From: Williamsia herbipolensis | GTDB lineage: Bacteria > Actinomycetota > Actinomycetes > Mycobacteriales > Mycobacteriaceae | Direction: 5' to 3' | Length of the DNA: 64,000 bases | Assembly (NCBI RefSeq): GCF_000964005.1 | Contig: NZ_JXYP01000014.1 | Location: 62,001 to 126,000, forward strand | Shown here: positions 8,680-20,153 of the stretch, piece by piece | How the letters are laid out: each line of letters begins with the position of its first letter | How positions within the stretch are numbered: the stretch's first letter is position 1 | Translations under genes and position numbers: made by a program | Notes under the pieces: generated by a model | Told to the model about the DNA's origin: nothing | The model's input: the letters and a program-made list of their open reading frames with translations, nothing else | Database searches by the model: none

Positions 8680-8751
8680 TCCCCCATGGTGTAATCGGCA
8701 ACACTTCTGATTTTGGTTCAGGCATTCCAGGTTCGAGTCCTGGTGGGGGAG
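8680..8751 (+). tRNA. tRNA-Gln (anticodon TTG)
   Basis: Cloverleaf of 72 nt. The acceptor stem TCCCCCA (8680-8686) pairs with TGGGGGA (8744-8750), discriminator G at 8751. The anticodon stem TCTGA/TCAGG encloses the loop TTTTGGT with anticodon TTG, reading CAA. The T arm is CCAGG TTCGAGT CCTGG. CCA is not encoded. The 3' half (from 8715) is repeated at 18202-18240 and is the attachment core of the neighbouring element, so the present gene is the reconstituted tRNA after integration. Confidence 0.95.
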
Positions 8752-8753
8752 CA
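8715..8753 (+). repeat. attL core: 39-bp direct repeat within tRNA-Gln
   Basis: Identical over 39 bases to 18202-18240. It starts at the anticodon loop and runs through the T arm and acceptor end of tRNA-Gln into the GCA that follows. Flanking bases differ on both sides (T versus C before, A versus C after), which fixes the limits of the identity. Confidence 0.92.
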
Positions 8754-8808
8754 AAACCAGTCCTTAACAGCGCTTTAGCGCTCAAGTCCAATCGCCGCAG
8801 GGATCGGA

Positions 8809-8830
8809 TATCGCACATCTATCGCACAAT
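8809..8830 (+). promoter_or_regulatory. Left arm-type integrase sites (two TATCGCACA repeats, 11-bp period)
   Basis: TATCGCACA occurs at 8809-8817 and again at 8820-8828 in the same orientation, about 55 bp inside the element from the attL core. A matching pair with the same 11-bp period lies inside the right end (18054-18073). Short tandem direct repeats near both att cores are how arm-binding sites of tyrosine integrases usually look. Binding is an inference. Confidence 0.6.
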
Positions 8831-8857
8831 CTCACCCGATCGGGTCGTGGCGTGCGA

Positions 8858-9997
8858 TCAGAGGCTCAGGGCACCGTCGAGTTTGGCAACAGCACGGCTT
8901 GTCACCGACGGCCACAGGTGCGTGTACGTGGACAGGGTCTCGTTCGCACTCGCGTGTCCGAGTAGGGCTTGCACCGTCGGTACATCCGCCCCCTGCGAGA
9001 TCAGCGCCGAGGCGTACAGATGGCGACAATGGTGGGGCGTGACCTTGGTACGAACCTTGGCCAAGTCACGCGCCGTCGCGAACGCGCCGCCATAGGTGTT
9101 CGAGGTGAACATTCCTCCGAGCCGCGACAGGAACAGCGGCTCGTCGGGGCCATCGTCGGGCCGAACTAAAAGCTGATCACGGATAATCTCGATGGCCCGG
9201 TCGGAGAGTTCGATGTCTCGCTTAGATGCCGGGGTCTTGAGGGGGTGCCATTCCTTTGCTGCAGTCCGTCCCGACTGGTGGCGCACCATCAGGACGCGAG
9301 CGTCGAGATCGACACTGCGCCGTCTCAGGCCGCACAATTCCCCCGGTCGCAGTCCCGTGTACGCCTGCAGTCTGATCATGCGCCCAACGACGGCGGGAGC
9401 GTGTTCGATGATCGCGCTGAGGTCCGACTGTGAGACAAGTTCGTCGGAGGAGACCGGGTCGCCGCCCGCCCCCTTGGGTGGTTTTACGTCCCGAGCGGGG
9501 GAGCGGTAGAGGATCTCATCCGTCACCGCCTGATTCAGCACCGTTTTGACCGATCGCAGGTGAAGCGCTGCCGATCTTGGCTTCAAAGGCTTGCCGTCGG
9601 CCCAGGGGCGACCGTTCAACAGCAATGCGAGCCAGTCACGCACATGTACCGGGGTGATGGTGCCGACCGGCATGTCGGCCAGCGGTCCGAGGTTGTTGGC
9701 CGCCGCCTGCTTCAGTGCTCGCGTGTTCGGCACATCGGTCCGTTCGACAGTCTTTGCCATCAACTCACCGAGCGTCATCCTTTGCTTGTCGGGGGCGATG
9801 AACTCGCCCCGGTGCGACTTGGACTCCTGCTCAGACTTGAACGCCTTTGCCTCACCCTCAAGTTCGAACGTGCGGCTGTGGTGCTTGCCATCGGAGGTGC
9901 GATATCGCACGTCGTACCGGAACTTCTGCGTTTTGAGAGGCTTTCCGGTCCGCGGGTTAACTGCAAGAGGGATCGGACGTCTGGTGATGGAGGCCAT
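8858..9997 (-). CDS. int: Tyrosine-recombinase integrase of the tRNA-Gln element
   Basis: A 379-residue integrase. It has an N-terminal arm-binding region, a core-binding SAM-like domain (about 60-150) and a C-terminal catalytic domain with Arg in TGLRPGELCGLR, the HHCRHLYAS His/Arg box, His in ALLGHASA and the nucleophile Tyr in STYTHLWPS. It transcribes towards the tRNA it integrates into, the usual layout. I chose the ATG at 9997 (MASITRRPIP); a GTG at 10015 would add six residues. A TATCGCACA copy at 10008-10016 lies over the upstream start region, so integrase may bind near its own promoter. Confidence 0.93.
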   Translation of the reverse strand: MASITRRPIPLAVNPRTGKPLKTQKFRYDVRYRTSDGKHHSRTFELEGEAKAFKSEQESKSHRGEFIAPDKQRMTLGELMAKTVERTDVPNTRALKQAAANNLGPLADMPVGTITPVHVRDWLALLLNGRPWADGKPLKPRSAALHLRSVKTVLNQAVTDEILYRSPARDVKPPKGAGGDPVSSDELVSQSDLSAIIEHAPAVVGRMIRLQAYTGLRPGELCGLRRRSVDLDARVLMVRHQSGRTAAKEWHPLKTPASKRDIELSDRAIEIIRDQLLVRPDDGPDEPLFLSRLGGMFTSNTYGGAFATARDLAKVRTKVTPHHCRHLYASALISQGADVPTVQALLGHASANETLSTYTHLWPSVTSRAVAKLDGALSL

Positions 9998-10015
9998 GGG
10001 CCGATCGTATCGCAC

Positions 10016-10213
10016 AATATGTAGTTCCAGGCTCGCCTACCGCGCCGAGATTGGCGCGAGTGGATACCCCGATTCGGCGCCGACCCCGTGTGACACTTGG
10101 TGGGACCTGATCGACTCCGGTGAATGCGAGCCGGATCGGCGACTACAGAAGGTTCCTGCCTGGAACCCCCGGCAGCATCCCCTGCCACCCTGCGGCTCCC
10201 TCAGGAGATCGTC
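10016..10213. promoter_or_regulatory. Divergent control region between integrase and excisionase-like gene
   Basis: 198 bp without a convincing gene, separating the leftward integrase from the rightward early operon. It begins with one TATCGCACA copy (10008-10016) and ends with the CAGGAGA ribosome-binding site of the next gene. Promoters for both directions probably lie here, but I cannot place -10/-35 boxes with confidence. Confidence 0.4.
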
Positions 10214-10423
10214 ATGTCCACCTCCACCTCCGCCGTCACTAGCCCCGGCGCATTGCGCGACATGTCCTGGTTGCTTGGCTTCCTCGGGATCTCGCGCACG
10301 GTCGGCTATGCCCTCGTGCGTCGCAACGAGATTCCGCACGTGCGCATCGGCCAGGCAATTAGGTTTGATGAGAACCAGATTCAGGCATGGGTAGACGGAC
10401 ACCCTCGCGTCGGTGGCCGGTAA
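10214..10423 (+). CDS. Excisionase-like helix-turn-helix protein
   Basis: A 69-residue protein with a MerR/AlpA-type winged helix: LLGFLGISRTVGYALVRRNEIPHVRIGQAIRFDENQ gives the usual pattern (helix-turn-helix, then an RxG-R wing). This is the domain of phage excisionases and AlpA regulators, which bend att DNA or switch early promoters. The ATG at 10214 follows CAGGAGA (10202-10208) at good spacing; the frame is open further upstream but without such a site. Position opposite the integrase supports a recombination-directionality role. A purely regulatory AlpA role is the alternative. Confidence 0.8.
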   Translation: MSTSTSAVTSPGALRDMSWLLGFLGISRTVGYALVRRNEIPHVRIGQAIRFDENQIQAWVDGHPRVGGR

Positions 10424-10554
10424 TTCGAATCCCCTTGTGCGGGGGCTTCAGGCCAGCGGAGAATGAAGGTAGACCGAGTCGCTGACGCCCACTCGTCCAC
10501 CGGTCGAGTCGGAGCCTCTTCGCACCCCCCCCGAGACCGTTAGGCGGTACCCCC

Positions 10555-10779
10555 ATGCTCGACCCTGTCATCCTCGACATCTTCTGTGCTCGGCGCCATC
10601 TCCGAGCAGCGTTCGACATCAGTGAGCGAACCCTCCGAACCATTTTGCGAGACAATGATGTTCGCACCTTCGACACACCTGGAGGCGAGCTTCGATACAG
10701 CCTCGCTGACTTCAGGGAGGCCATCGGCCTCGAGCGCCACCCGCAGGTACCGGACTGCTACGCGCCGCCGATGTCGTGA
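10555..10779 (+). CDS. Small helix-turn-helix protein of the element
   Basis: A 74-residue protein with a likely helix-turn-helix (ERTLRTILRDNDVRTFDTPGG) followed by a wing-like strand and helix (LRYSLADFREAIGLE), again reminiscent of the MerR/excisionase fold. It begins an overlapping gene chain: its TGA (10777-10779) overlaps the GTG start of the next small gene. No clear ribosome-binding site precedes 10555. Function beyond DNA binding is not known. Confidence 0.65.
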   Translation: MLDPVILDIFCARRHLRAAFDISERTLRTILRDNDVRTFDTPGGELRYSLADFREAIGLERHPQVPDCYAPPMS

Positions 10780-10943
10780 GCGGTCACCTCACCGTCCCGC
10801 AATTCTCGCGCATTGCCGCTGAACCTCGTGACGAGATCCTGTCCCTGATAGCCACGAAGCAACTCGACGCGCACCAGGTCGGCGGTATCTGGCTTATCGA
10901 ACTTGGTTCCGCCGCACGGTATCTCGCCCGCCGCAATACGTAA
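10776..10943 (+). CDS. 55-residue small protein of the element
   Basis: Opened by GTG at 10776, overlapping the preceding stop by four bases (GTGA), and closed by TAA at 10941-10943. The translation starts VSGHLTVPQFSRIAAEP and ends YLARRNT. It looks alpha-helical with a basic end, and could be a small DNA-binding protein. The case for a real gene is the exact 4-bp coupling, which recurs throughout this module, rather than recognisable homology. Confidence 0.5.
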   Translation: MSGHLTVPQFSRIAAEPRDEILSLIATKQLDAHQVGGIWLIELGSAARYLARRNT

Positions 10944-10966
10944 ATGTCCACACCATGGATAGAACA

Positions 10967-11005
10967 ATGCCCCCGCTCGGCTTACCGGGCCAGGTGCGGG
11001 GGCAT
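10967..11005 (+). terminator. 10-bp perfect hairpin inside the early operon
   Basis: ATGCCCCCGC (10967-10976) is complementary to GCGGGGGCAT (10996-11005) with a 19-nt loop. No T tract follows, so it is either a weak terminator/attenuator or an RNA stability element. It sits just before the preferred start (11025) of the next gene and argues against the longer start at 10944. Confidence 0.5.
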
Positions 11006-11024
11006 CGAAAAGGACTTAGCTCAA

Positions 11025-11294
11025 ATGATACCACCGACTTTGCTCGAGGTCGCTGCGATACGCGAGGCATTCGAGACTGGCCAGCGGCCCGCGTTCGACC
11101 CCGGTCAGTGTGCTGACGCACTCCCTCCGGAATACCCCCGAATTGATCGGTACGAGCCCGACTACGCCAGCGACACCGACAGCAGGCCATTCGACCCGAC
11201 CCCGTGGGCACAGGTTGCGCGCCGACTCTCCGACTGGCACGAGTTCCGCCGCGACAATCTCTGGGCCATAAGGGTTAAGGGCTCGGCATCATGA
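11025..11294 (+). CDS. Hypothetical 89-residue protein upstream of the RepA-like ATPase
   Basis: From ATG 11025 (MIPPTLLEVAAIREAFETG) to the TGA that overlaps the ATG of the next gene (ATGA, 11291-11294). AAAGGAC at 11009-11015 is a fair ribosome-binding site. The frame is open to 10944, but that longer version would contain the 10967-11005 hairpin. The protein is acidic and Pro/Asp-rich in the middle, with an aromatic C-terminal part (WAQVARRLSDWHEFRRDNLW). I do not recognise a family. It is probably coupled to replication, given its position. Confidence 0.6.
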   Translation: MIPPTLLEVAAIREAFETGQRPAFDPGQCADALPPEYPRIDRYEPDYASDTDSRPFDPTPWAQVARRLSDWHEFRRDNLWAIRVKGSAS

Positions 11295-12535
11295 CAATTG
11301 CTCTTACTCCACCGTTCGCTTACGGCACCGAGTACGACGAGAACGGATTCGAGGTCGACTCCGCGCCTGTGACACCGTCCGTTTTGGACGTGATCGACCT
11401 TATCGCCGGCGACGACCTCGACGCGATGGAGTTCCCCGACCTCGAGTGGGCAGTGCGAGGCGTGGTCCCCGAAGGTTTCGGCCTTATCGTCGCACCACCG
11501 AAGGCGGGCAAGTCATGGCTTGTCGCCGGTATCGGGCTTGCCTGCGCCACGGGTGGCGTTGCACTGGGACACATCCCGGTCGAACAACGGCCAGTGCTCT
11601 ACATGGCGCTCGAGGATGGGCGTCGTCGACTGCAGTCGAGATATCGCACGCTTCTGCAGGGTGCGCCTATCCCCGCTGAGATGGTCTCGGTGACCGACCT
11701 CAAGCTGCAGGACGTTACCGAGGTCATCACCGCATTTTGTGAACGCAATGCAGACCGCAAGCCGCTGGTCATCCTCGACACCCTCGGCAAGGTTAAACCT
11801 GCCAAGAAGGCGAATGCCGATAGCTATCAGGCCGATTACGCGATCGGATCGGCGCTCAAGCGAGTGATCGACGCCCATCCCGGCTCGACGTTGCTGGCCG
11901 TCCACCACACGCGCAAGGCCGAGTCAGAGGACTTCGTCGATGCCGTCAGCGGAACCCACGGCATCGCCGGGTCTGCGGACTTCGTCCTGGTGCTCTCCCG
12001 CAAGCGGCAGTCCCAGGACGCTGTACTCGCCATCACGGGCCGCGATGTCGCAGAGACCGAGGTGGCACTTGTCACCGACGGTGGGGCGTGGAGCCTAACG
12101 AGTTCTAGCCTTACGCAAGCAACCGAGGATGCTGTTATCCGTCGAGAGCGGTCGGGCAAGTCGGATCGAACGATCCGTGCACTTGAGTACGTGAACAGCC
12201 GACCGACCACCCGCCCACCCGAACTGGCCGCGTGGCTCGATATCAACATCGACGACGCCGGGCGCTACCTACGGCGGATGTATGACGACGGATTAATTGA
12301 CAAGCAATCCAGAGGTCTTTACCGACCCGTGTCCGAAGCGTCCGAAGTGTCCGAACGGTTCAAAACTTCGGACACTCGCGCACTTACGGACAGTACTGAT
12401 GGAGCTTTAAAACTACCGCTGAACAGCGAAAAGGACACTTCGGACGCTTCGGACACGAAACGTTGCGCACGCTGTGACTGCCCGATGACTTTCCCCGACG
12501 ACATCGCCAACGGTTCTCACATCGAGTGCACCTAG
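11291..12535 (+). CDS. RepA-like RecA-fold ATPase (AAA_25), probable replication protein
   Basis: A 414-residue protein with a RecA/DnaB-like ATPase core: Walker A APPKAGKSW at about 68-76, Walker B PLVILDTLG with Asp163, and a sensor-like LLAVHHTRK. This is the RepA/RSF1010-type hexameric helicase family that plasmids and phage satellites use to start or extend replication. Residues about 285-345 look like a winged helix. The C-terminus (about 391-413) has a Cys cluster, CARCDCPMTFPDDI to HIEC, probably a small zinc ribbon; a very similar ribbon is encoded by the next gene. Start overlaps the preceding stop by 4 bp. Confidence 0.8.
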   Translation: MTIALTPPFAYGTEYDENGFEVDSAPVTPSVLDVIDLIAGDDLDAMEFPDLEWAVRGVVPEGFGLIVAPPKAGKSWLVAGIGLACATGGVALGHIPVEQRPVLYMALEDGRRRLQSRYRTLLQGAPIPAEMVSVTDLKLQDVTEVITAFCERNADRKPLVILDTLGKVKPAKKANADSYQADYAIGSALKRVIDAHPGSTLLAVHHTRKAESEDFVDAVSGTHGIAGSADFVLVLSRKRQSQDAVLAITGRDVAETEVALVTDGGAWSLTSSSLTQATEDAVIRRERSGKSDRTIRALEYVNSRPTTRPPELAAWLDINIDDAGRYLRRMYDDGLIDKQSRGLYRPVSEASEVSERFKTSDTRALTDSTDGALKLPLNSEKDTSDASDTKRCARCDCPMTFPDDIANGSHIECT

Positions 12536-12554
12536 ACATCCCCAACCCAGATCC

Positions 12555-12764
12555 GTGCGGGCCTACGCACTGGCTCGACTCAACGGCCACCACCTGACCG
12601 CCCAGGCCGCTCGAGGTGCCGCAGTCCTCGCCCGACTCTCTCGACCGCCACAGCCACGCTCACCTGCGACGTGCGAGATCTGCGATGGCCCCATGACCTT
12701 TCCGGAAGACATCGACATCGGCCATCACCTCGGATGCGCCACCACCATGACAAGGACACGATGA
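12555..12764 (+). CDS. Small zinc-ribbon-like protein (69 aa)
   Basis: Starts at GTG 12555 and ends with CEICDGPMTFPEDIDIGHHLGC, which repeats the CxxC-PMTFPxDI-G-H-C pattern found at the end of the preceding ATPase. The N-terminal half is basic and Ala-rich. The paired CxxC and His/Cys residues suggest a metal-binding knuckle. It may be a detached copy of the ATPase tail or a partner that docks through the same fold. Its TGA overlaps the ATG of the next gene. Confidence 0.55.
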   Translation: MRAYALARLNGHHLTAQAARGAAVLARLSRPPQPRSPATCEICDGPMTFPEDIDIGHHLGCATTMTRTR

Positions 12765-13000
12765 CCACACCCACCAACCGCACTCGACACCGCAACGAGC
12801 GCCGAGACCTGGAGCGCCGTGTCGAGCACGCCCGCGACTCGCTTCGCATCCTGGCCGGCCTGCTCGTGGAGCAACGCGACGCCATGACCCTGGTGCGGCA
12901 CGAACTCGACGCACTCACCGACCGACACGCCGCACTTATGGCCGTCGCGGCCATCGCCATCGACGACACCGGCCTGCTTGAGGATCGGGTAATCAAATGA
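12761..13000 (+). CDS. Coiled-coil small protein (79 aa)
   Basis: ATG 12761 overlaps the preceding stop (ATGA). The sequence MTTPTNRTRHRNERRDLERRVEHA is strongly charged, followed by a long helix (LLVEQRDAMTLVRHELDALTDRHAAL) with heptad spacing. No domain is recognised. Position and coupling indicate membership in the replication/packaging operon. Confidence 0.55.
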   Translation: MTTPTNRTRHRNERRDLERRVEHARDSLRILAGLLVEQRDAMTLVRHELDALTDRHAALMAVAAIAIDDTGLLEDRVIK

Positions 13001-13161
13001 TCTCAGACAACGAAATACGCACGGCACAAGCGCTGTTCGACCTACAGACGATCATCGCCGACCAACAGAAGCTCATCGATTATCTGGCTCAGTGCTGCCA
13101 GTCCTACCACGGCGCGCTACTGGCACACGATCGGCGACTCACGATGATCGAGGCACGGTGA
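12997..13161 (+). CDS. 54-residue helical protein of the element
   Basis: ATG 12997 overlaps the previous TGA by four bases, and its own TGA (13159-13161) overlaps the GTG of the next gene. The translation begins MISDNEIRTAQALFDLQ and includes a CC pair (LAQCCQSYH). It is predicted helical. No family is recognised; support comes from the unbroken chain of 4-bp overlaps on both sides. Confidence 0.5.
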   Translation: MISDNEIRTAQALFDLQTIIADQQKLIDYLAQCCQSYHGALLAHDRRLTMIEAR

Positions 13162-13862
13162 CAGCGGCTACGGACCCGGAACGCTTTGGCTGGCGTTTCT
13201 GGCTGATCTCCGACACATATGGGCAGCTGATGACACCGTGGGCCAACCAGGACGAACTGGTCGATCTCAACATGTCAGACCCCATCTTCAGCAACCCGAA
13301 ACCCGCTGTCACCGCGACGTGTACCGGTGGGCATCCCGTACCGTCACCGTTCTGCACCTGCGGTATCCACTACTGTCCTGGCGCGGAAACATTCTTCCAA
13401 GCACTCAATGGCGGGTTTTTGAACAAGACCGTGGATCGGGAACTGGTCGCGGTCGCTTTCGGTGTCGCGGGCGGCGGCGTCATGTTCGATCCGAAAAACG
13501 GCGACTGGGGAGGCATCCGCCCCCGACGCGCATCGAGCTTCCACGTCCTGGGGCTGATGCTCCCCGAGACATCATCGTGGCAGCAGGCTTTCGAGGATCG
13601 GTACAACATCCCGGTCATCAAAGGGGTCGATCTGGAGGCTGCAAAAGCTCTGGAGAGGACCGCGCTCGCAACACTTTTCATGACTACCACCGACGAGGAA
13701 TTGGACATTCTGATGGACGATCACACCACAATTGAGGTTTTAGCAGCCTATATGCGAGAGCAGTCCGTAATCGTTAAGGATCTGCTCGACATGATGACCA
13801 CCCACCACGCTGGCATGCTCGATCTGGAAAGCCGATTGAAAGCGCTAGAGGGTGCCGAATGA
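13158..13862 (+). CDS. Hypothetical 234-residue element protein with a Cys/His cluster
   Basis: GTG 13158 overlaps the preceding stop, and the TGA overlaps the next ATG. The N-terminal half is rich in Trp and contains CTGGHPVPSPFCTCGIHYCPG (a Cx10-Cx1-Cx4-C arrangement), followed by a Gly-rich strand region (AVAFGVAGGGVMFDP), which reads like a small zinc-binding regulatory or host-takeover domain. The C-terminal 70 residues look helical or coiled. I do not recognise the family. It sits between the replication and capsid modules. Confidence 0.6.
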   Translation: MTAATDPERFGWRFWLISDTYGQLMTPWANQDELVDLNMSDPIFSNPKPAVTATCTGGHPVPSPFCTCGIHYCPGAETFFQALNGGFLNKTVDRELVAVAFGVAGGGVMFDPKNGDWGGIRPRRASSFHVLGLMLPETSSWQQAFEDRYNIPVIKGVDLEAAKALERTALATLFMTTTDEELDILMDDHTTIEVLAAYMREQSVIVKDLLDMMTTHHAGMLDLESRLKALEGAE

Positions 13863-14191
13863 ACCTCGATACGAACAGCCTCGGGGAACGTCTCGCGGTC
13901 GGGGACATCCGCGGGATCATCGCGTACACACACCTCGGTGAGCACCAGGACGCCCACGACAGCACCCTCGAAGCCGATCTCGCTAACGCCCGGTTCCGAA
14001 GGGCAGCAACCGACCTTGAGGTCGAACTGCTGCGCCACGTCGGCGCTCTCGCTGCCGACGACAACCGGGCCGTGGTCGTGACAAACCGATGGTCTGGTCC
14101 CATTCGCTGCAGCACTTACAGTGCCGGTCGCGAAGTACTCCGCGACCCGCGCACCCTTCCCACCGCCCCGACCGAGGACACCGAACAATGA
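13859..14191 (+). CDS. Hypothetical 110-residue element protein
   Basis: ATG 13859 overlaps the previous stop (ATGA), and its own stop overlaps the start of the scaffold-like gene. The protein is helical and acidic in the middle (HLGEHQDAHDSTLEADLANARFRRAATDLEVELLRHVG), with a basic C-terminal stretch. No known domain is recognised. Its position directly before the scaffold gene suggests a role in capsid assembly or its control. Confidence 0.55.
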   Translation: MNLDTNSLGERLAVGDIRGIIAYTHLGEHQDAHDSTLEADLANARFRRAATDLEVELLRHVGALAADDNRAVVVTNRWSGPIRCSTYSAGREVLRDPRTLPTAPTEDTEQ

Positions 14192-14670
14192 GCGAACTCG
14201 ACAGCACGAACCCCGTTCCCGCCCCTCTCGCCGAGCAGGCGCAGCCGAATACCGATCCGGCCAACACCGAGACCCCTGAGATCGACCCGGCGGCCAACGA
14301 CCACACAGACGAGCGAAAGCTACGCCGCCGAGCCCAGGCGGCCGAGGCCGAACGTGACACTCTCGCAGCACGCCTCAAGGGGCTGCAGCTGGCCGAGGTC
14401 GAGCGCCAACTCGCAGTAGTCCTCGCGGTCCCCGGCGACTTGTTTGACTTCTCCGACACCACGCTTGCTGACCTCTGCGACCCCGACACGGGCGCGGTCG
14501 ATCCCGAGAAGGTCACCGAGGCCGCATCGGCACTCGTCGAGCTGCGCCCGGGCCTGGCATATGTCGCGCCGAGGCCCGCATCACGTGCTGGGACTTATCA
14601 GAACGCAGGTCAGGGCCGGGGATACTCAGACCGGCCCTCGCCGGTCGGCTGGGATCAAGTCTTCGGGTGA
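14188..14670 (+). CDS. Probable phage scaffolding protein
   Basis: A 160-residue, Pro/Glu/Ala-rich protein lying immediately before the capsid gene, the standard place for a scaffold. A disordered acidic N-terminus (about 1-45) is followed by a coiled coil (KLRRRAQAAEAERDTLAARLKGLQLAEVER) and a short folded tail (FSDTTLADLCDPDTGAVDPEKVTEAASAL) typical of actinophage scaffolding proteins that pair with HK97-fold capsids lacking a delta domain. It starts with a 4-bp overlap with the previous gene. The call rests on architecture and position, not on a catalytic motif. Confidence 0.7.
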   Translation: MSELDSTNPVPAPLAEQAQPNTDPANTETPEIDPAANDHTDERKLRRRAQAAEAERDTLAARLKGLQLAEVERQLAVVLAVPGDLFDFSDTTLADLCDPDTGAVDPEKVTEAASALVELRPGLAYVAPRPASRAGTYQNAGQGRGYSDRPSPVGWDQVFG

Positions 14671-14835
14671 ATCGCCTTGTCAGGCCATGACAAACCCGGG
14701 ACAATTGGTACTAGGCGATGGGATGCCGGGGCAGTAAGGCCCCACCTCACCCGCCACGTTCTCGCCCAGTATCGGGCCACCACGTCCGCGCCAGTACTGG
14801 TGCCGTGAGTTCTCCACTCACACAAAGGTATTCAC
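14671..14835 (+). promoter_or_regulatory. Gap between scaffold and capsid genes
   Basis: 165 bp with no credible gene. The overlapping-gene chain is broken here, so the capsid gene may have its own promoter or be set apart for higher expression. A CACAAAGG stretch (14820-14827) just before ATG 14836 is the likely ribosome-binding site. Confidence 0.35.
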
Positions 14836-15663
14836 ATGAGTCTGACCACCAACAACAGCAAGCCATTGGCCCCGTCCGAGATCTCGGACCTGATCGTGGC
14901 ACCCACCTTCGAGAAGGCCACCGCATCGCAGGCCGCCACCGTCATGGAGTTTGCCACGCCTGACCTGCGAGTGCCGATTATCGAGGACGGGTCGTCGGCG
15001 TTCGTGAGCGAAGGCAGCGAGATCGCGATCTCGGAGCCGACGTTCACCGAGGCGGTCATCGTCCCCAAGAAGGTGGCCCAGCTCGTGCCGGTCACCAACG
15101 AGTTGCTTGCAGACGCCGCCGGGGACATCAAGACCCTGATCGGTGAGAGCATGACCCGCTCGCTTGCACGCCGGATTGACGCCCAGTTCTGGGCAGCGAC
15201 CACCGGGCCACTGGGATTCAAGGCCATCGGATCGGTCGCCGACGTGCTCACCGCCACTAGCAACCTCAGCAACCTGGATGTGTGGATTGAGGCCATCGCC
15301 GACCTCGCAGCACACGGACATACCGCCACAGCCGCCGTCGTCAGCCCCGACGTGTTCAAGGCACTGGCAACGCTCAAGACATCTGCGGGCAGCAACGTCA
15401 CGTTGCTGCAGGCCTCGCCGACCGAAGCGGCACAGCTGCGCGTGGCCGGTCTGCCCGTAATCCTCACCGACGCGCTGCCCGCGAACACTGCCTACGTCAC
15501 CGATGCCAGCAAGGTGCTGATCGGCGTGCGCACCTCGGATGTCCAGATCGACGTGGACCAGAGCGTGTTTTTCTCCAGCGACCGCGCCGCGATCCGTGCC
15601 ACGCTCCGCGTTGGGGTGGCATATCCAGCTCCGACGGCCATCGTGAGAATCACCCTCACCTGA
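14836..15663 (+). CDS. HK97-fold major capsid protein
   Basis: A 275-residue phage capsid protein. Recognisable family features are the strand-rich opening (EISDLIVAPTFEKATASQAATVMEF), an E-loop-like GSSAFVSEGSEIAISEPTFTEA, the spine-helix segment VPVTNELLADAAGDIKTLIGESMTRSLARRIDAQFW, and a C-terminal P/A-domain ending in strands (VGVAYPAPTAIVRITL). It is shorter than typical 300-400 aa capsids and has no N-terminal delta domain, in keeping with a separate scaffold. HK97-type major capsid subunits are needed in hundreds of copies. Presence of a complete capsid gene without portal or tail genes is the key oddity of the element. Confidence 0.88.
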   Translation: MSLTTNNSKPLAPSEISDLIVAPTFEKATASQAATVMEFATPDLRVPIIEDGSSAFVSEGSEIAISEPTFTEAVIVPKKVAQLVPVTNELLADAAGDIKTLIGESMTRSLARRIDAQFWAATTGPLGFKAIGSVADVLTATSNLSNLDVWIEAIADLAAHGHTATAAVVSPDVFKALATLKTSAGSNVTLLQASPTEAAQLRVAGLPVILTDALPANTAYVTDASKVLIGVRTSDVQIDVDQSVFFSSDRAAIRATLRVGVAYPAPTAIVRITLT

Positions 15664-15668
15664 TCTTG

Positions 15669-15720
15669 GCGATGTGCACGCTAGGCGACGAGATGTCGTG
15701 ATCTCGTCGCAGCACATCGC
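15669..15720 (+). terminator. Two-part hairpin just after the capsid gene
   Basis: Outer stem GCGATGTGC (15669-15677) pairs with GCACATCGC (15712-15720). Inner stem GCGACGAGAT (15685-15694) pairs with ATCTCGTCGC (15701-15710) around a 6-nt loop. It starts five bases after the capsid stop. There is no T tract, so it may end transcription weakly, protect mRNA ends, or be a protein-binding DNA site such as a packaging signal. Confidence 0.6.
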
Positions 15721-15778
15721 CCCGCTGTTCGGTCGCCGCTAGGTTCTTGCTTCCTGGCGTGTGCCCGTTTGGCATCCC

Positions 15779-15827
15779 ACTCAGCCCTGTCTCTGGTTGC
15801 CGCAATCGACATGAGGCAGGGCTGAGT
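15779..15827 (+). other. 11-bp inverted repeat before the small terminase gene
   Basis: ACTCAGCCCTG (15779-15789) and CAGGGCTGAGT (15817-15827) form a perfect stem with a 27-nt loop, 30 bp before the small terminase start. With the hairpin at 15669-15720 it fills the 194-bp gap between capsid and terminase genes. It may be a terminator/attenuator or a DNA site for the small terminase (pac/cos-like), which commonly lies close to terS. Confidence 0.5.
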
Positions 15828-15857
15828 TATATCCGAAAGACATTGAGAGGCAATCGA

Positions 15858-16250
15858 ATGAAGATCACCCAGGCCGAGCGAAGATCATGGTCGACGCGTG
15901 CTCGCCAGTTCGCTGGCGAGTTGGAAGGCCAGTTCGATCTGACCGCCGGCGAGGTCGTCACCCTCGTGGAAGTGTGCCGCGGCATCACCAGGCTCGATGC
16001 GTTGCATGAAGCGCTGCAGGATGGATCGCTGACCGTCGAGGACCGTTTCGGCGCGACCGTCACGCACCCACTCATGGTCGAGGCCAGGCTTACTTCGGCC
16101 ACTGTCGCGAAGTTGATCGGCGCGCTACGGGTTCCCGAGATCGAGACCGATGCCACCACTGGCGAGGTCACGGCGGGCAAGCGGGCTGTGAGACGTGTAC
16201 ACACACGCCCAGGGCAGTATTCCCCGGGCCTGTCGGTCGTGCCGGGTTGA
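15858..16250 (+). CDS. Small terminase subunit-like protein (P27 family)
   Basis: A 130-residue protein. ATG 15858 follows GAGAGG (15845-15850); the open frame upstream to 15747 runs through the inverted repeat and is not credible. The helical core (LTAGEVVTLVEVCRGITRLDALHEAL) followed by VTHPLMVEARLTSATVAKLIGALRVPE matches the layout of P27-type small terminases, which end in a line like NPLVAELRQQRATLARLLAAL-LP. TerS recognises phage DNA for packaging. No large terminase is present, so packaging would need one from a helper phage. Confidence is moderate because the family is poorly conserved. Confidence 0.65.
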   Translation: MKITQAERRSWSTRARQFAGELEGQFDLTAGEVVTLVEVCRGITRLDALHEALQDGSLTVEDRFGATVTHPLMVEARLTSATVAKLIGALRVPEIETDATTGEVTAGKRAVRRVHTRPGQYSPGLSVVPG

Positions 16251-16519
16251 GGCTCAAGACCCAACCTCGAGCGCCACGCGGTGACGACGGCGGGCCACCC
16301 TGGCCACTCTCCGACGGCCCGACGGTCGAGCACTTCGCCCCCGACTACTGGCACGACTCTCACGGGATCGAGCCTGACCATTCGGACCCCGACTGGTGGG
16401 CAGCGCTGATGCAGGCCCGTCGATCGCATCGTGAGTACCACTTCAGGTGGGCGGGAGACGTGGGGCTTGGTGACGACGAGGCCGAGCGCACGATGGTGCA
16501 TCGACGGCCACGCTGGTGA
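16247..16519 (+). CDS. Hypothetical 90-residue element protein
   Basis: A TTG at 16247 overlaps the TGA of the terminase-like gene by four bases. The protein is rich in Trp, His, Asp and Pro (GGPPWPLSDGPTVEHFAPDYWHDSHG). No family is recognised. The tight coupling suggests it is co-expressed with the small terminase. It ends before a strong bidirectional hairpin. Confidence 0.5.
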   Translation: MRLKTQPRAPRGDDGGPPWPLSDGPTVEHFAPDYWHDSHGIEPDHSDPDWWAALMQARRSHREYHFRWAGDVGLGDDEAERTMVHRRPRW

Positions 16520-16533
16520 GCATGCAAGACAGA

Positions 16534-16561
16534 AAGCCCCGCACCTCAAGGTGTGGGGCTT
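16534..16561. terminator. Bidirectional terminator between convergent element genes
   Basis: AAGCCCCGCACC (16534-16545) and GGTGTGGGGCTT (16550-16561) form a 12-bp stem (one G-T pair) with a TCAA loop, in the 59-bp gap between the rightward capsid/terminase operon and the leftward gene ending at 16579. The A-rich left flank and TCTGTTG right flank fit a terminator usable from both sides. Confidence 0.75.
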
Positions 16562-16578
16562 CTGTTGTCCGTGGGTCG

Positions 16579-16872
16579 TCAGGCGTACTGAACCGAGTCG
16601 CTCCATGCGACCAGCGCGCCGAAGTGTTCCGACGAGCGTCGGTCCTCGAGGATCCGACGCTCGGCGAGCAGCATGTAGACGAGATCGGGATCGTAGTCGG
16701 CGCCGACCTTGGCATCCTCATCGAGCAACCGAGCCTCGACCTCGGCCAGCTTGGCGGTCGTCGCGTCAGCTGCAGCCTCGAACCCGCGCTGATCGAGCTG
16801 CGCCTCGGCGCGTCGGTGGTTCGGCTTGCGTGAGGCCTGGAAGAACCATTCGAGGACAACTGCGCCGATCAT
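16579..16872 (-). CDS. Hypothetical 97-residue element protein, helical
   Basis: Begins MIGAVVLEWFFQASRK, possibly a hydrophobic N-terminal helix, followed by a charged helix-rich region (RRAEAQLDQRGFEAAADATTAKLAEVEARLLDEDAKVG) that could form a coiled coil. Its ATG overlaps the stop of the gene at 16869 by four bases. It is the second gene of a two-gene leftward unit. No recognised family; a regulatory, immunity or anti-phage role cannot be judged from sequence alone. Confidence 0.5.
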   Translation of the reverse strand: MIGAVVLEWFFQASRKPNHRRAEAQLDQRGFEAAADATTAKLAEVEARLLDEDAKVGADYDPDLVYMLLAERRILEDRRSSEHFGALVAWSDSVQYA

Positions 16873-17060
16873 CGGTTCACCCCCGCAACGGTCGCGGTGA
16901 TCATGTCGAGCAATGCAGGCACTTGGTCGAGAGAGAGTTCGATGATGTCGTCCCCTGCCTCAAGGCAGAGAAAGTGTGTGCCGGGGTCTCCGTCGACAAT
17001 CGAGGCGGTAATCATCGCGCGTTGTGGCGAGCTGCAGAATGTGAAATCGGATGTCGTCAT
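16869..17060 (-). CDS. Hypothetical 63-residue element protein
   Basis: ATG 17060 gives MTTSDFTFCSSPQRAMITASIVDGDPGTHFLCLEAG and an acidic C-terminal helix (ELSLDQVPALLDMITATVAG). The frame is open to 17117, but the extra residues are less protein-like. It overlaps the downstream gene by 4 bp, forming a leftward pair. A compact beta-strand then helix layout is suggested. No family is recognised. Confidence 0.5.
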   Translation of the reverse strand: MTTSDFTFCSSPQRAMITASIVDGDPGTHFLCLEAGDDIIELSLDQVPALLDMITATVAGVNR

Positions 17061-17414
17061 GAAGCAAGGAATACACGCGCCGAATTGATAGCGCAATACC
17101 CGGACGACATATTGCATGCCTCAATTGTCGGGCTGCAGCTGCGAGACAGCAATTATTGCGTGCCCCGGTTCAGTGCGCGGAACCATCACGCCTCTCCTCG
17201 AGGCCGGCCCGGCTGTGGCCTGTGGCGCCCCGGGTCGAGACCCCCTGTCCCCCATGATCTTTGGCCGCCGCATCGCTCTGTTGCTGACAGTGCGGCTTAG
17301 CTGAACGTCTCCATGTCGCCGGTCAAACTGCAGGTAGAACCCTATTTCGCCCGCTGAAGACCGAGCAAATATCGGCATAAACACCACGAAACCCACCGAA
17401 ACGAGTCCCAAAAC
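17061..17414. other. 354-bp stretch without a recognised gene, AT-richer than its surroundings
   Basis: Separates the leftward small-gene pair from the rightward ADP-ribosyltransferase-like gene. Parts such as 17075-17160 and 17370-17410 have several A/T runs unusual for this chromosome, consistent with divergent promoters of recently acquired genes. Short frames inside it have no ribosome-binding site or recognisable product. I see no repeat or RNA gene. Confidence 0.4.
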
Positions 17415-18029
17415 ATGCAAGAAACGGCCCAATTACGCGATGCGCTGCTCTCCGACGAACCCACAGATGCCATGGTGCGACTGATCAGCGCCGCCGCAAG
17501 CGACATAAAAATGTCTGCGCCGAGGTCCGCTCAACAATGGCCCGAGAAAGCGTCGCTTATCGAGAGGACGAACAATCCTCAATTAGAGTTCGCCGTATCT
17601 CAGTGGACTCATGGCGGCATTCACTCGCTGTTTATCGACGAATGGCGCAACGAGGCCCGCGCAGCCCTACTCGACCCAACCACCGCCGACGGCATTGGAG
17701 GCATCCTCGTCGCCGAGGCACTGGCGCAGCCAGCAACGTCCACTTACCTGTATCGCGGCGTTGCATCCTGGGACAGCCCCACGTTCTGCGATCTGTCCTC
17801 GTGGACCACCGACCCCCTGGTGGCGCTCATCTATGCCGCAATGGTTGGTGATGACGAGATGACCGTCCTACGCCTCGCCCCCGGTGCTCTCGCTGCAGAC
17901 CTATCCACCCCGAGCGGTGAGTACGTCACGCTTGGCCCGATCGCTCCCACGGATAGTCCAGTGGGCCCACCACGGGGCGGCGTGCGCGTTGTGGACCTCG
18001 TGCCGGGCGAGGGGTGGCGCGTGGCGTGA
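17415..18029 (+). CDS. ADP-ribosyltransferase-fold protein, likely cargo of the element
   Basis: A 204-residue protein with a helical N-terminal half and a C-terminal half matching the R-S-E class of ADP-ribosyltransferases: YLYRG with Arg114 on the first strand, SSWTTDPLVALIYA (residues 128-141) resembling the STS strand and following helix, VLRLAPG, and GEYVTLGP with Glu169 where the catalytic Glu strand is expected. The family transfers ADP-ribose from NAD+ to proteins, nucleic acids or small molecules. There is no signal peptide, so it probably acts inside the cell. Base composition is less GC-rich than its neighbours. It lies alone beside attR, the usual place for satellite cargo. The fold call is from motif spacing only. 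Confidence 0.6.
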   Translation: MQETAQLRDALLSDEPTDAMVRLISAAASDIKMSAPRSAQQWPEKASLIERTNNPQLEFAVSQWTHGGIHSLFIDEWRNEARAALLDPTTADGIGGILVAEALAQPATSTYLYRGVASWDSPTFCDLSSWTTDPLVALIYAAMVGDDEMTVLRLAPGALAADLSTPSGEYVTLGPIAPTDSPVGPPRGGVRVVDLVPGEGWRVA

Positions 18030-18053
18030 GGCGCTGTTCTCTCTGCGGGGTCT

Positions 18054-18074
18054 CATCGCACACATATCGCACAC
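18054..18074 (+). promoter_or_regulatory. Right arm-type integrase sites (two ATCGCACA repeats, 11-bp period)
   Basis: CATCGCACA (18054-18062) and TATCGCACA (18065-18073) are in the same orientation with an 11-bp period, about 130 bp inside the attR core, mirroring the pair at 8809-8828. They lie between the cargo gene stop and the core, in otherwise non-coding sequence. Confidence 0.6.
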
Positions 18075-18112
18075 TTGGTGCCCAACTCCGTGTTATCCGG
18101 TAGAACGACGTA

Positions 18113-18991
18113 TCACGACTGCATCGCTAGAAAGCCGTTGAGCTGCAAATATGGTCCACTGTTGACAACCCCGTGATATTGTGTAGCACCGCTCATAACT
18201 CGGTTCAGGCATTCCAGGTTCGAGTCCTGGTGGGGGAGCACTACGTCGAACGCGGCCATGCGAATGAGCTGACGGAAGGCGGCGGTTCTGAGGAGCCATC
18301 GAGTCCGTCCGCCGGGCACCGCAGCCGCCTCGTTCTCCAGAGCGGTGATCATGTGCTGTGTGAAGCCGAGACGCGGATGCCGCTCGAGAAGCTCGGCCAC
18401 CCAGGTTGGGTCCAGATCGGCCAGTCGATCACCGATGACGTCCACCGCGGCGCCGGCCGACACGAACCCGACACCGCCGAGATCGTCGGCGATGCCGACC
18501 GTCAGGTGGCCGGCGATCGCCGCTCCTATGGCGTGGGCGCGCGTCGGGTCGGCGCCGTTGGCGCGGGTGAAAGCGACTGCGCGCTCGGCGCCCGTGACAG
18601 CGAAGCACCGGCCCGGCGTCGGGCGTTCGAGGTGCAGGTCGTGGAGCAGGCTCGCCACGAATGCGAGTTCGTCGTCGAAGGCGATGCCACGTAGTTCGCA
18701 GAGTGCGCGCGCGAAGAAGTAGGTGCGATAGGAATGCTCCACTACATGGGGTGTGAGGCTCGTCCTGGCCTCCTCCTCCGCAGCGACCGCCAGGCGTGAG
18801 GACGGCAGTCTCAGCCCGTTGAAGTCGACGCGACCGTTACCCCGCCGACCCATGGCGACCCTCGCGTAGCCGGCCACCGTCCGAGGTAGTTCGGCGATGA
18901 GCGCGACCGCCAATGACCGTCGCGCAGCGGGCGACAACACCCCGCCGGTCGAGATGGCCCACTCCCAGTCCCACTGATCCACTGCGGTCAT
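18113..18991 (-). CDS. HD-domain protein with its 3' end over the element attR site
   Basis: A 292-residue protein. ATG 18991 is preceded by GAGGGG at proper spacing; the longer frame to 19054 lacks this. The HD-type metal-binding pattern is seen as VVEHSYRTYFFARAL and ASLLHDLHLERP, similar to cyanamide hydratase/phosphohydrolase-like HD proteins; substrate unknown. The final residues read through the antisense of the tRNA fragment (LPHQDSNLECLN), and the last 29 residues come from element DNA. In the empty site the frame would instead run into the antisense of the EAL gene to about 8455. The natural C-terminus is therefore uncertain and has been rewritten by the insertion. Confidence 0.75.
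   Translation of the reverse strand: MTAVDQWDWEWAISTGGVLSPAARRSLAVALIAELPRTVAGYARVAMGRRGNGRVDFNGLRLPSSRLAVAAEEEARTSLTPHVVEHSYRTYFFARALCELRGIAFDDELAFVASLLHDLHLERPTPGRCFAVTGAERAVAFTRANGADPTRAHAIGAAIAGHLTVGIADDLGGVGFVSAGAAVDVIGDRLADLDPTWVAELLERHPRLGFTQHMITALENEAAAVPGGRTRWLLRTAAFRQLIRMAAFDVVLPHQDSNLECLNRVMSGATQYHGVVNSGPYLQLNGFLAMQS
18202..18240 (+). repeat. attR core: 39-bp direct repeat of the tRNA-Gln 3' half
   Basis: Identical to 8715-8753. Only the anticodon-loop-to-acceptor part of the tRNA is present, so this is not a second tRNA gene. It marks the outer end of the element and falls inside the reading frame of the HD-domain gene. Confidence 0.92.
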
Positions 18992-19093
18992 CGTTGCCCC
19001 TCGGGTCGTGAACGGCTGACCGTACCGGCCAGTCGGGACATGCGACAGGGCCACTGCGTTCCGCGGAGCGTGGTCGCGGTCGTCGGAATCTGT

Positions 19094-19534
19094 TCAGTTG
19101 CTGCCGAATGTGGGCGCAGGTGCCGGTGTGGACTCCACGTAGGGGATCGCGACGACGTTGTTCGAGAGGTTCGGATCGAACGGTGTCACGCCGTTCTCGG
19201 CTATGGGGCCGGCGACGAGGTAGAGGACTTTGTCGGACTCCAGCGCGGTGCAGGTGGTGGAATACTCCACCTTGACGCTGGTACCGGCGACCACGGGGCC
19301 GAGGTCTCGGAAGTAAACCTTCTCGAAGAAGTCCGACGGCGCGATGGAGACCCGGACGGTGTCGGGGCCGAGATTGGTCACCCCCAGGGTGCATCCGGAC
19401 CCGGGCGTCGGGGTGAGCAATGCGAGTGCGATGTCAGCGGTCGGTGGGGTGGCCGCGCTTGCCGCGCCCGTTCCGATGGTGATGGCGGTGGTCGCGGCGG
19501 CCATGCAGCCGACCAGGGTGGCGAGGACGTTCTT
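19094..19534 (-). CDS. Secreted hypothetical protein
   Basis: A 146-residue protein with a clear signal peptide (VKNVLATLVGCMAAATTAITIGTGAASAA, split here as KNVLATL, hydrophobic core and ASAA cleavage site). The mature part is mainly beta-strand-like (GCTLGVTNLGPDTVRVSIAPSD) with two Cys that could form a disulfide, resembling CARDB/immunoglobulin-like exported domains. GTG 19534 is preceded by GGAG at six-base spacing. No enzymatic motif. It is presumably exported to the cell envelope. Confidence 0.7.
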   Translation of the reverse strand, partial: KNVLATLVGCMAAATTAITIGTGAASAATPPTADIALALLTPTPGSGCTLGVTNLGPDTVRVSIAPSDFFEKVYFRDLGPVVAGTSVKVEYSTTCTALESDKVLYLVAGPIAENGVTPFDPNLSNNVVAIPYVESTPAPAPTFGSN

Positions 19535-19621
19535 CACGGGTGGCTCCGATCTTCGGTGGGCGAGTTCTCGCACTCGTGGAACGGAACAGTACCAAATCTC
19601 GTTCGTTTGTATGCCGAACAG

Positions 19622-20044
19622 TCAGACGGCGTGCATGAAGCTCTTCTGTTCGCGTCGCCCGGTGAAGCGCCATGTGTCGTCGATGCGGGCGAAGGTGTCG
19701 TGGTACCAGACCCCGACGAGCAGCATCTGCTGCTTCTCGCCTCCGGCGACGACCATCGGGTTGAAGCACATCGTGGTCGCCGAGGCGGTGTCGCCGTCGA
19801 GGGTGATCGAGTGGTTGCCGTTGAGGTGTTGGTAGTCGGAGAACAGGGCGAGGTTCTCACGCAGCCACGGCACCACCTGTTCGGTGGTTCCCACCGCGCC
19901 GCCGACCGGGGAGTAGTCGATCACCGCCTCGGGGGTGAACAACTCGCGCAGCCGGTCGAAGTCGCGGGTGTCGACGGCGGTCGAGTAGTCGGTGATCAGT
20001 GCGGTGATCTCCATGCGGTCGGAGATCTCGACGAGATCCATCAT
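19622..20044 (-). CDS. SnoaL-like (NTF2-fold) protein
   Basis: A 140-residue NTF2-superfamily protein: helices ISDRMEITALITDYSTAVDTRDFDRLRELFTPEAVIDYS followed by strands including GNHSITLDGDTASATTMCFNP and WRFTGRREQKSFMH. This matches SnoaL_4-type proteins, some of which are cyclases, dehydratases or isomerases; the conserved Tyr/Asp/His pocket is plausible, but the substrate is unknown. Start at 20044 (MMDLVEI) or one codon later. It is divergent from the TetR regulator at 20154, which may control it. Confidence 0.75.
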   Translation of the reverse strand: MMDLVEISDRMEITALITDYSTAVDTRDFDRLRELFTPEAVIDYSPVGGAVGTTEQVVPWLRENLALFSDYQHLNGNHSITLDGDTASATTMCFNPMVVAGGEKQQMLLVGVWYHDTFARIDDTWRFTGRREQKSFMHAV

Positions 20045-20153
20045 GGGTCGAAAGTAGTGCGATCGGCCCTGCGTGGGATCGGAGATGGGAAGATCGGGGC
20101 AAGCGATCAGCGTCGATCCGCACTGTCGGCGCCTACACGGGTGGGGTGATGAC

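Follow-up and report, generated by a model that had tools for sequence, protein, structure and literature searches.

A 9.5-kb element in a tRNA-Gln gene of Williamsia herbipolensis as a probable capsid-encoding phage satellite

A 9,487-bp element occupies a tRNA-Gln gene of Williamsia herbipolensis on contig NZ_JXYP01000014.1. We analyzed it within a window of 64,000 nucleotides (positions 62,001 to 126,000 of the contig), to which the coordinates below refer, and we consider it likely that the element is a phage satellite, integrated and probably mobile, whose capsid shell comes from its own genes and the rest of whose particle is supplied by a helper. Gene families called by Pfam and PHROGs profile matches include a capsid, a scaffold, and a terminase small subunit (TerS), and the same profiles gave no match in the element for a portal, a terminase large subunit (TerL), a protease, a connector, or a tail. 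No lysis genes were recognized in it, and the AD1/HC1 connector profiles had no match there either. An earlier, sequence-only reading of this DNA had likewise seen no portal, TerL, or tail genes, and no open reading frame (ORF) the size of a portal or TerL is left over: the eight ORFs of at least 250 aa are the integrase, the ATPase, the capsid, the protein at 13158-13862, and four more that lie across other genes, mostly in antisense, and have unlikely codon-position GC. That reading had proposed a satellite with its own capsid and TerS that borrows helper parts. Our analysis supports this proposal; the absence of TerL, portal, and tail genes leads us to infer that a helper supplies them.

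In the presence of an active helper phage, the element would excise by means of its integrase and helix-turn-helix (HTH) protein and would replicate from its own Rep protein and the repeats within the rep gene. A small procapsid would form from the element's own capsid and scaffold around the helper portal, the element's TerS would mark element DNA for the helper TerL, and helper connectors and a tail would complete the particle. If packaged as a monomer, a 9.5-kb genome would fit a shell of about T=3, given the published size relation in which T=3 corresponds to 8.1 to 17.1 kb (PMC7762592). In the part of that study used here, T=3 tailed capsids are described as lacking among characterized tailed phages, with four isolates predicted to be T=3 (PMC7762592).

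Gene content, capsid, and insertion site

Profile matches bore out most of the gene calls made from the sequence alone, namely, the integrase (PF00589 and phrog_1), the RepA-like ATPase (PF13481 and phrog_6357), the HK97-type capsid with a separate scaffold-like gene (PF05065, phrog_10, and phrog_4708), and the P27-like TerS (phrog_1496, 1.3e-8). The call of several excisionase-like proteins stood in part: the product of 10214-10423 is a clear excisionase-like protein with an HTH, and its neighbor at 10555-10779 is without a family match.

The capsid was modeled with AlphaFold from an alignment of 28 relatives. The model has a mean predicted local distance difference test score (pLDDT) of 84.8 and a predicted template modeling score (pTM) of 0.80, and its best Foldseek matches in the PDB are HK97 heads (E 5e-17, with a template modeling [TM] score of 0.73 on the query). 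Lower in the list are the capsid of SaPI1, a Staphylococcus aureus pathogenicity island (8vd4; E 1.9e-13), and that of EcCI2, a capsid-forming phage-inducible chromosomal island (cf-PICI) (9gyi; E 8.8e-13). The single capsid sequence matched none of the sequences of solved structures; a capsid profile with two further rows matched 27 PDB sequences, of which 26 are named capsid or head proteins and one is Gp6. The predicted fold is that of HK97, and the capsid call made earlier holds under structure prediction. At 275 aa, the protein seems to be without the delta domain of HK97; the scaffold has a gene of its own, 5' of the capsid. A profile built from this scaffold has matches in 69 of the 80 related loci described below.

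Comparison of the element's TerS with phage TerS proteins gave 25 records at E 0.1, all weak (best, 1e-4), from phages of Gordonia, Mycobacterium, and Microbacterium. The gap between capsid and TerS holds two strong hairpins (z -6.28), the second of which contains GGGCTGAGTT and stops about 30 nt 5' of TerS. L034, one of the related loci (numbered L, and their genomes G, throughout), has a similar layout (z -5.1), with a same-letter hairpin before TerS. As a special feature of the element, the hairpins were rejected, as z is low after the capsid in many loci of both kinds distinguished below; a plain terminator is therefore as likely as a packaging site, and control of TerS was also considered.

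As the sequence-only reading had described, two 39-bp repeats correspond to the 3' half of tRNA-Gln; they agree at 39/39 bases and are spaced 9,487 bp apart. GC content in 1-kb windows is 0.59 to 0.66 within the element versus 0.64 to 0.72 outside. The GlmU protein of the host is 80% identical to that of a Williamsia MAG and 79% identical to that of Williamsia maris, the best two of the 80 hits listed. The tRNA-Gln was found in 7/7 other genomes of the host genus, and the site is empty in four of them (L195, L196, L198, and L199), because there a GGDEF/EAL gene, the tRNA, and a TetR gene, which in the window stands beyond attR, adjoin within about 3 kb. Only one flank was seen in L197 and L201 and neither flank in L200. 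The capsid search gave no match in any of the seven genomes. The stretch from 18241 to 20073, between attR and the TetR gene, holds an HD-domain gene and another small ORF. In the four congeners the gap from tRNA to TetR is less than about 1 kb, and the stretch may therefore be a separate insertion.

Homologues of the ATPase occur in L066, L078, L088, and L094. Near 12329-12457, within the ATPase gene, CTTCGGAC or its complement occurs in five copies, a count per 260 bp that no other 8-mer reaches in the 64-kb window. The almost identical word TGTCCGAA has five copies in the homologue of L078, a different word has six copies in L066 and three in L094, and a third word has only two in the homologue of L088. 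This arrangement suggests a candidate replication origin within the rep gene. By eye, a zinc-finger-like motif at the ATPase end (CARCDCPMTFPDDI...C) and in the small ORF that immediately follows (CEICDGPMTFPEDI...C) looks as if it were duplicated (12470-12764).

Table 1. Features of the element and its attachment gene, in window coordinates
Feature	Position	Strand	Basis
tRNA-Gln (ttg), attachment gene, kept whole	8680..8752	+	ARAGORN
attL, 39-bp repeat	8715..8753	+	direct repeat with attR
Tyrosine integrase, 385 aa	8858..10015	-	PF00589 2.7e-26, phrog_1 4.3e-62
HTH_17 excisionase-like protein, 69 aa	10214..10423	+	PF12728 2e-8, phrog_66 5.9e-5, phrog_1840
Small ORF, 74 aa	10555..10779	+	no family match; no homologue in 80 loci
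Small ORF, 116 aa	10944..11294	+	no family match
RepA-like AAA ATPase, predicted replication protein	11291..12535	+	PF13481 AAA_25 4.2e-26, phrog_6357 3.9e-42
8-mer repeats in both orientations (TGTCCGAA-type) and perfect 25-bp inverted repeat, within ATPase gene	12329..12457		
Short ORF, SlyX-like below cutoff	12761..13000	+	
Protein without assigned function, start codon picked by eye	13158..13862	+	homologue in L078
U110, before scaffold	13859..14191	+	conserved in 12/80 loci, none of them with TerL
Scaffolding protein, ~160 aa, start codon picked by eye	14188..14670	+	phrog_4708 head scaffolding 1.1e-4
Major capsid protein, 275 aa, predicted HK97 fold	14836..15663	+	PF05065 2.6e-31, phrog_10 2.4e-38
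Capsid-TerS gap, two strong hairpins	15664..15857	+	
P27-like TerS, 130 aa	15858..16250	+	phrog_1496 1.3e-8; no Pfam match
C90, directly 3' of TerS	16247..16519	+	present in 4/80 loci
Accessory ORF, 97 aa	16579..16872	-	no match
Accessory ORF, 82 aa	16869..17117	-	no match above cutoff
Accessory ORF adjoining attR, 204 aa	17415..18029	+	no match above cutoff
attR, 39-bp repeat	18202..18240	+	direct repeat with attL

The 204-aa accessory protein next to attR has no family above the cutoff, no phage match, and no relatives in these searches, and its structure model (pLDDT 35) was too poor and was left unused. By eye, it shows an arginine / S-S-W-T-T / E-Y-V-T pattern that may resemble the motif of ADP-ribosyltransferases, a likeness that gained no support.

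Two gene arrangements among related loci

Within the family, at least 64 of 301 genomes have capsid matches at E 1e-10, and the places number no fewer than 79; both counts are lower bounds, since up to eight candidates were scored per genome. A class-wide set gave matches in 21 of 394 genomes, 13 of them in the same family, the window's own genome included. We compared 80 loci, made up of 77 fetched loci (two neighboring places share one), the window, and two phage records from Mycolicibacterium aichiense, with fetched flanks of about 10 kb on each side for most and shorter ones at contig ends. TerL and portal profiles for this comparison were built from the loci themselves. Public profiles were also run over whole genomes: phrog_2 in all 64, PF04860 in 30, and phrog_12, phrog_9, and phrog_104 in 40. 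As a portal test, phrog_12 and PF04860 alone proved poor because they missed phrog_104 portals, and phrog_9 and phrog_104 were therefore added in those 40 of the 64 genomes.

TerL was found in 24 of the 80 loci, a portal in 25, and either in 26, leaving 54 capsid loci with neither by profile in the fetched flanks. The whole-genome searches with public profiles agree with these calls. Near capsids without TerL or portal, they show only two portal pieces, at L060 (G205); elsewhere, G194 has a TerL and a portal about 25 kb from the capsid, and G091 has a portal about 10 kb away on the opposite strand. The pieces at L060 (G205:C23, 7891-8840) lie in two frames, in what is either a recombinant or a decaying element. 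Ten large unassigned ORFs from elements without TerL and portal were tested, and none is a TerL or portal; eight are primase/helicase-like (one weakly) and two are unmatched.

On a quick IQ-TREE capsid tree, the loci with TerL or portal share one branch in 25 of 26 cases, with a support of 99 in the Shimodaira-Hasegawa-like approximate likelihood ratio test (SH-aLRT), the exception being L060, and the TerL/portal label changes twice on the tree versus a shuffled mean of about 22. Four loci without TerL (L095, L102, L103, and L107) have longer capsid ORFs (419 to 454 aa) and group beside the TerL-bearing clade; they are possibly a third design, and L103 measures 10.5 kb between tRNA-Glu repeats.

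Repeats of tRNA genes delimit 42 of the 80 loci, each with an integrase inside. The delimited elements without TerL and portal (n = 24) span 7.36 to 10.52 kb, and the 23 of them with repeats of at least 20 bases span 7,355 to 10,520 bp, with a median of 9,487 bp. The delimited elements of the TerL kind (n = 18) span 8,599 to 11,320 bp (median, 10,436 bp), and this size of about 10 kb ruled out the idea that they are full prophages. Among the 38 undelimited loci, 24 have a serine integrase by profile, and some lie at contig ends.

The usual order in loci without TerL and portal is integrase, rep, sometimes U110, scaffold, capsid, and then, in 20 loci, a P27-like TerS, this being the number of loci matched by the TerS profile. 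TerS stands 3' of the capsid in 18 of the 20 and at the head of the linear record in two M. aichiense records. The nearest relative in gene order is L034, whose order of int, rep, U110, scaffold, capsid, TerS, and C90 is the same as that of the window element. Most loci of the sister kind have TerL and portal first and then scaffold and capsid; in L109 and L112, TerL and portal follow. The portal of this kind is phrog_104 in the two tested, and the TerL start and an HNH endonuclease gene overlap in 4/4 tested, of six looked at.

The window capsid matches 17 of 50,697 phage records, 12 of which are the M. aichiense records of about 11 kb (OR387110-OR387121), deposited as phages with soil as the source. 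Their capsids are 27 to 28% identical to that of the element, and they too have a scaffold and a P27-like TerS. The annotation of four of them lists a capsid and a small terminase, an adaptor and a closure protein, a serine integrase, and a tape measure gene; no TerL or portal is annotated in these four, and profiles found none in the two that were searched. These four records (L031, L032, L202, and L203) start 71 to 317 bp 5' of terS, as would be expected of a packaging end there, or this is a habit of annotation. No publication on the M. aichiense records was found in the open-access literature among the matches listed. The L034 capsid has no match among the phage records, and a capsid of the TerL kind has five, for none of which an actinobacterial host is named. 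With the window capsid as the sole query, scans of named genomes and of IMG/VR found no relative, and a 30-row alignment offered no stretch sufficiently conserved for such scans. Capsid matches in plasmids number two, one of them on a Tsukamurella plasmid.

Competing explanations and what the element may mean

The sequence-only reading had allowed that close relatives might normally carry the missing genes and that this copy was simply deleted. This did not prove to be the case: by profile, 54 of the 80 loci are without TerL and portal in the fetched flanks, and L034 has the same gene order. Loci of this kind fall in separate capsid lineages and are small where delimited, which argues that the reduced gene set is a recurring satellite design and not a one-off deletion. 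Even so, an ordinary prophage that lost its portal, TerL, and tail and now persists as a decaying, defective remnant would account for the missing genes, for several attR-side accessory ORFs without relatives in the 80 loci, and for the lack of helper genes found in the genome. We regard it as unlikely, as the recognized genes are open and coding-like and as elements lacking TerL and portal recur at different tRNA genes in different genera. Moreover, TerS follows the capsid in most of the loci that have it, whereas most loci of the sister kind have TerL and portal ahead of scaffold and capsid, and among the few phage-record relatives of the capsid there is no full-length actinophage.

The source of the borrowed parts could also differ. 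The host genome has no match to phrog_9, phrog_104, phrog_12, or PF04860 and two weak ones to phrog_2 (4.6e-5 and 9.7e-5), of a kind common in many of the genomes, and by these searches it seems to hold no helper. A motor and portal might come from a co-resident satellite of the HNH-TerL-portal-scaffold-capsid kind in place of a complete phage, since the two kinds are alike in size, have related scaffolds and capsids, and occur together in five genomes (G167, G156, G272, G283, and G299). This is very improbable here, with neither a phrog_9 TerL nor a phrog_104 portal in the host genome; also, no tail gene was recognized in either kind except the tape measure gene of the M. aichiense records, and a complete phage would therefore still be needed. 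Use of capsid-related proteins against a helper is known from satellites; this, with the lack of recognized lysis and tail genes, would suit a domesticated shell, in which capsid and TerS are kept for a gene-transfer-like particle or as a phage decoy and the element is not transferred. An open integrase, att sites, an excisionase-like gene, and a replication-type gene of its own all speak against domestication, as do the empty site in four congeners and the missing capsid match in all seven, which point to a mobile arrival; we think this explanation quite improbable.

Several observations count against a mobile satellite served by a helper phage. TerS is only weakly phage-like (22 to 37% identity over 47 to 89% of its length in 20 listed records out of 25) and was found in just 20 of the 54 loci without TerL and portal. 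No helper was identified, and the element is known here from its sequence alone. Upstream of the L060 capsid, which belongs to the portal-less group, lie two portal pieces. The window capsid is weakly placed on the tree (support 25), adjoining a long branch. That relatives lack TerL and portal was judged by profiles within flanks of limited length; large unassigned ORFs lie outside the tested set (e.g., in L061, L063, L067, L073, L077, L086, and L103), and L095, L097, L102, L103, L104, L107, and L113 were covered by phrog_2 and our own profiles, not by phrog_9 and phrog_104. Also, loci were about 20 kb long, so larger elements could not be delimited.

A broader idea, which we offer tentatively and with considerable doubt, is that satellites of about 10 kb are the main users of this Mycobacteriales capsid lineage, that full-length phages hardly use it, and that two designs persist: HNH-TerL-portal-scaffold-capsid and, as in this element, scaffold-capsid-TerS, with a foreign portal and motor in a self-made shell. 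If true, the narrow size range would make these elements natural makers of the T=3 tailed HK97-fold capsids missing among solved structures. A shell needing a foreign portal and motor would allow a direct test of an open question in phage assembly, namely, the compatibility of portal, scaffold, and capsid. Their sizes near 10 kb make these elements specific candidates for tailed T=3 capsids, which are called lacking in the portion of the literature cited above (PMC7762592). Those working on Williamsia and related phages gain a satellite to look for.

Comparison with known satellites

Islands of the SaPI type have their own integrase, rep, and TerS, use the TerL, portal, and tail of the helper, and reshape its capsid. 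The element likewise has an integrase, a replication-type gene, and a TerS; no TerL or portal was recognized in it, and it differs in bringing its own capsid, of predicted HK97 fold, and scaffold, which speaks against use of the helper capsid. The cf-PICIs, in turn, carry TerL and portal as well as a capsid and borrow only the helper tail; the element likewise has its own capsid and a replication gene but is without its own packaging motor and portal, and the sister kind of about 10 kb stands closer to them than the element does.

Among actinobacterial satellites, MulchRoom and MiniFlayer of Streptomyces (14.8 and 17.4 kb) encode, according to the sections of the source used here, both terminase subunits, a portal, a capsid, and a scaffold, form small capsids of about 43 nm, and are without a primase (PMC10690885). 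The element is also actinobacterial and codes for capsid and scaffold but differs in having no TerL or portal and in having a replication-type ATPase. With the M. aichiense records it shares the scaffold-capsid pair, a P27-like TerS, and the lack of TerL and portal; it has a tyrosine integrase and no connector genes, whereas they have a serine integrase, a head-tail adaptor, a head closure protein, and a tape measure protein.

The closest published counterparts are found in Mycobacterium, where candidate PICIs have an integrase and a major capsid gene, some with a helicase, terminase, or scaffold, and where tyrosine integrases are placed at tRNA genes and helper induction was not demonstrated, as far as the consulted part of the report goes (PMC10654092). 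The host here is Williamsia, and that part of the report contains no split into portal-bearing and portal-less elements and no placement of TerS (PMC10654092). The open-access literature searched, in the parts consulted, did not yield a two-design split with separate capsid clades and similar sizes, and we do not present it as unpublished. Since it has integration genes, encodes a major capsid, and is no intact prophage, the element falls under the candidate-PICI definition of Abad et al. 2023 (PMC10654092) and, to the extent that the consulted text describes them, fits the already published candidate-PICI kind of Mycobacterium rather than a new one.

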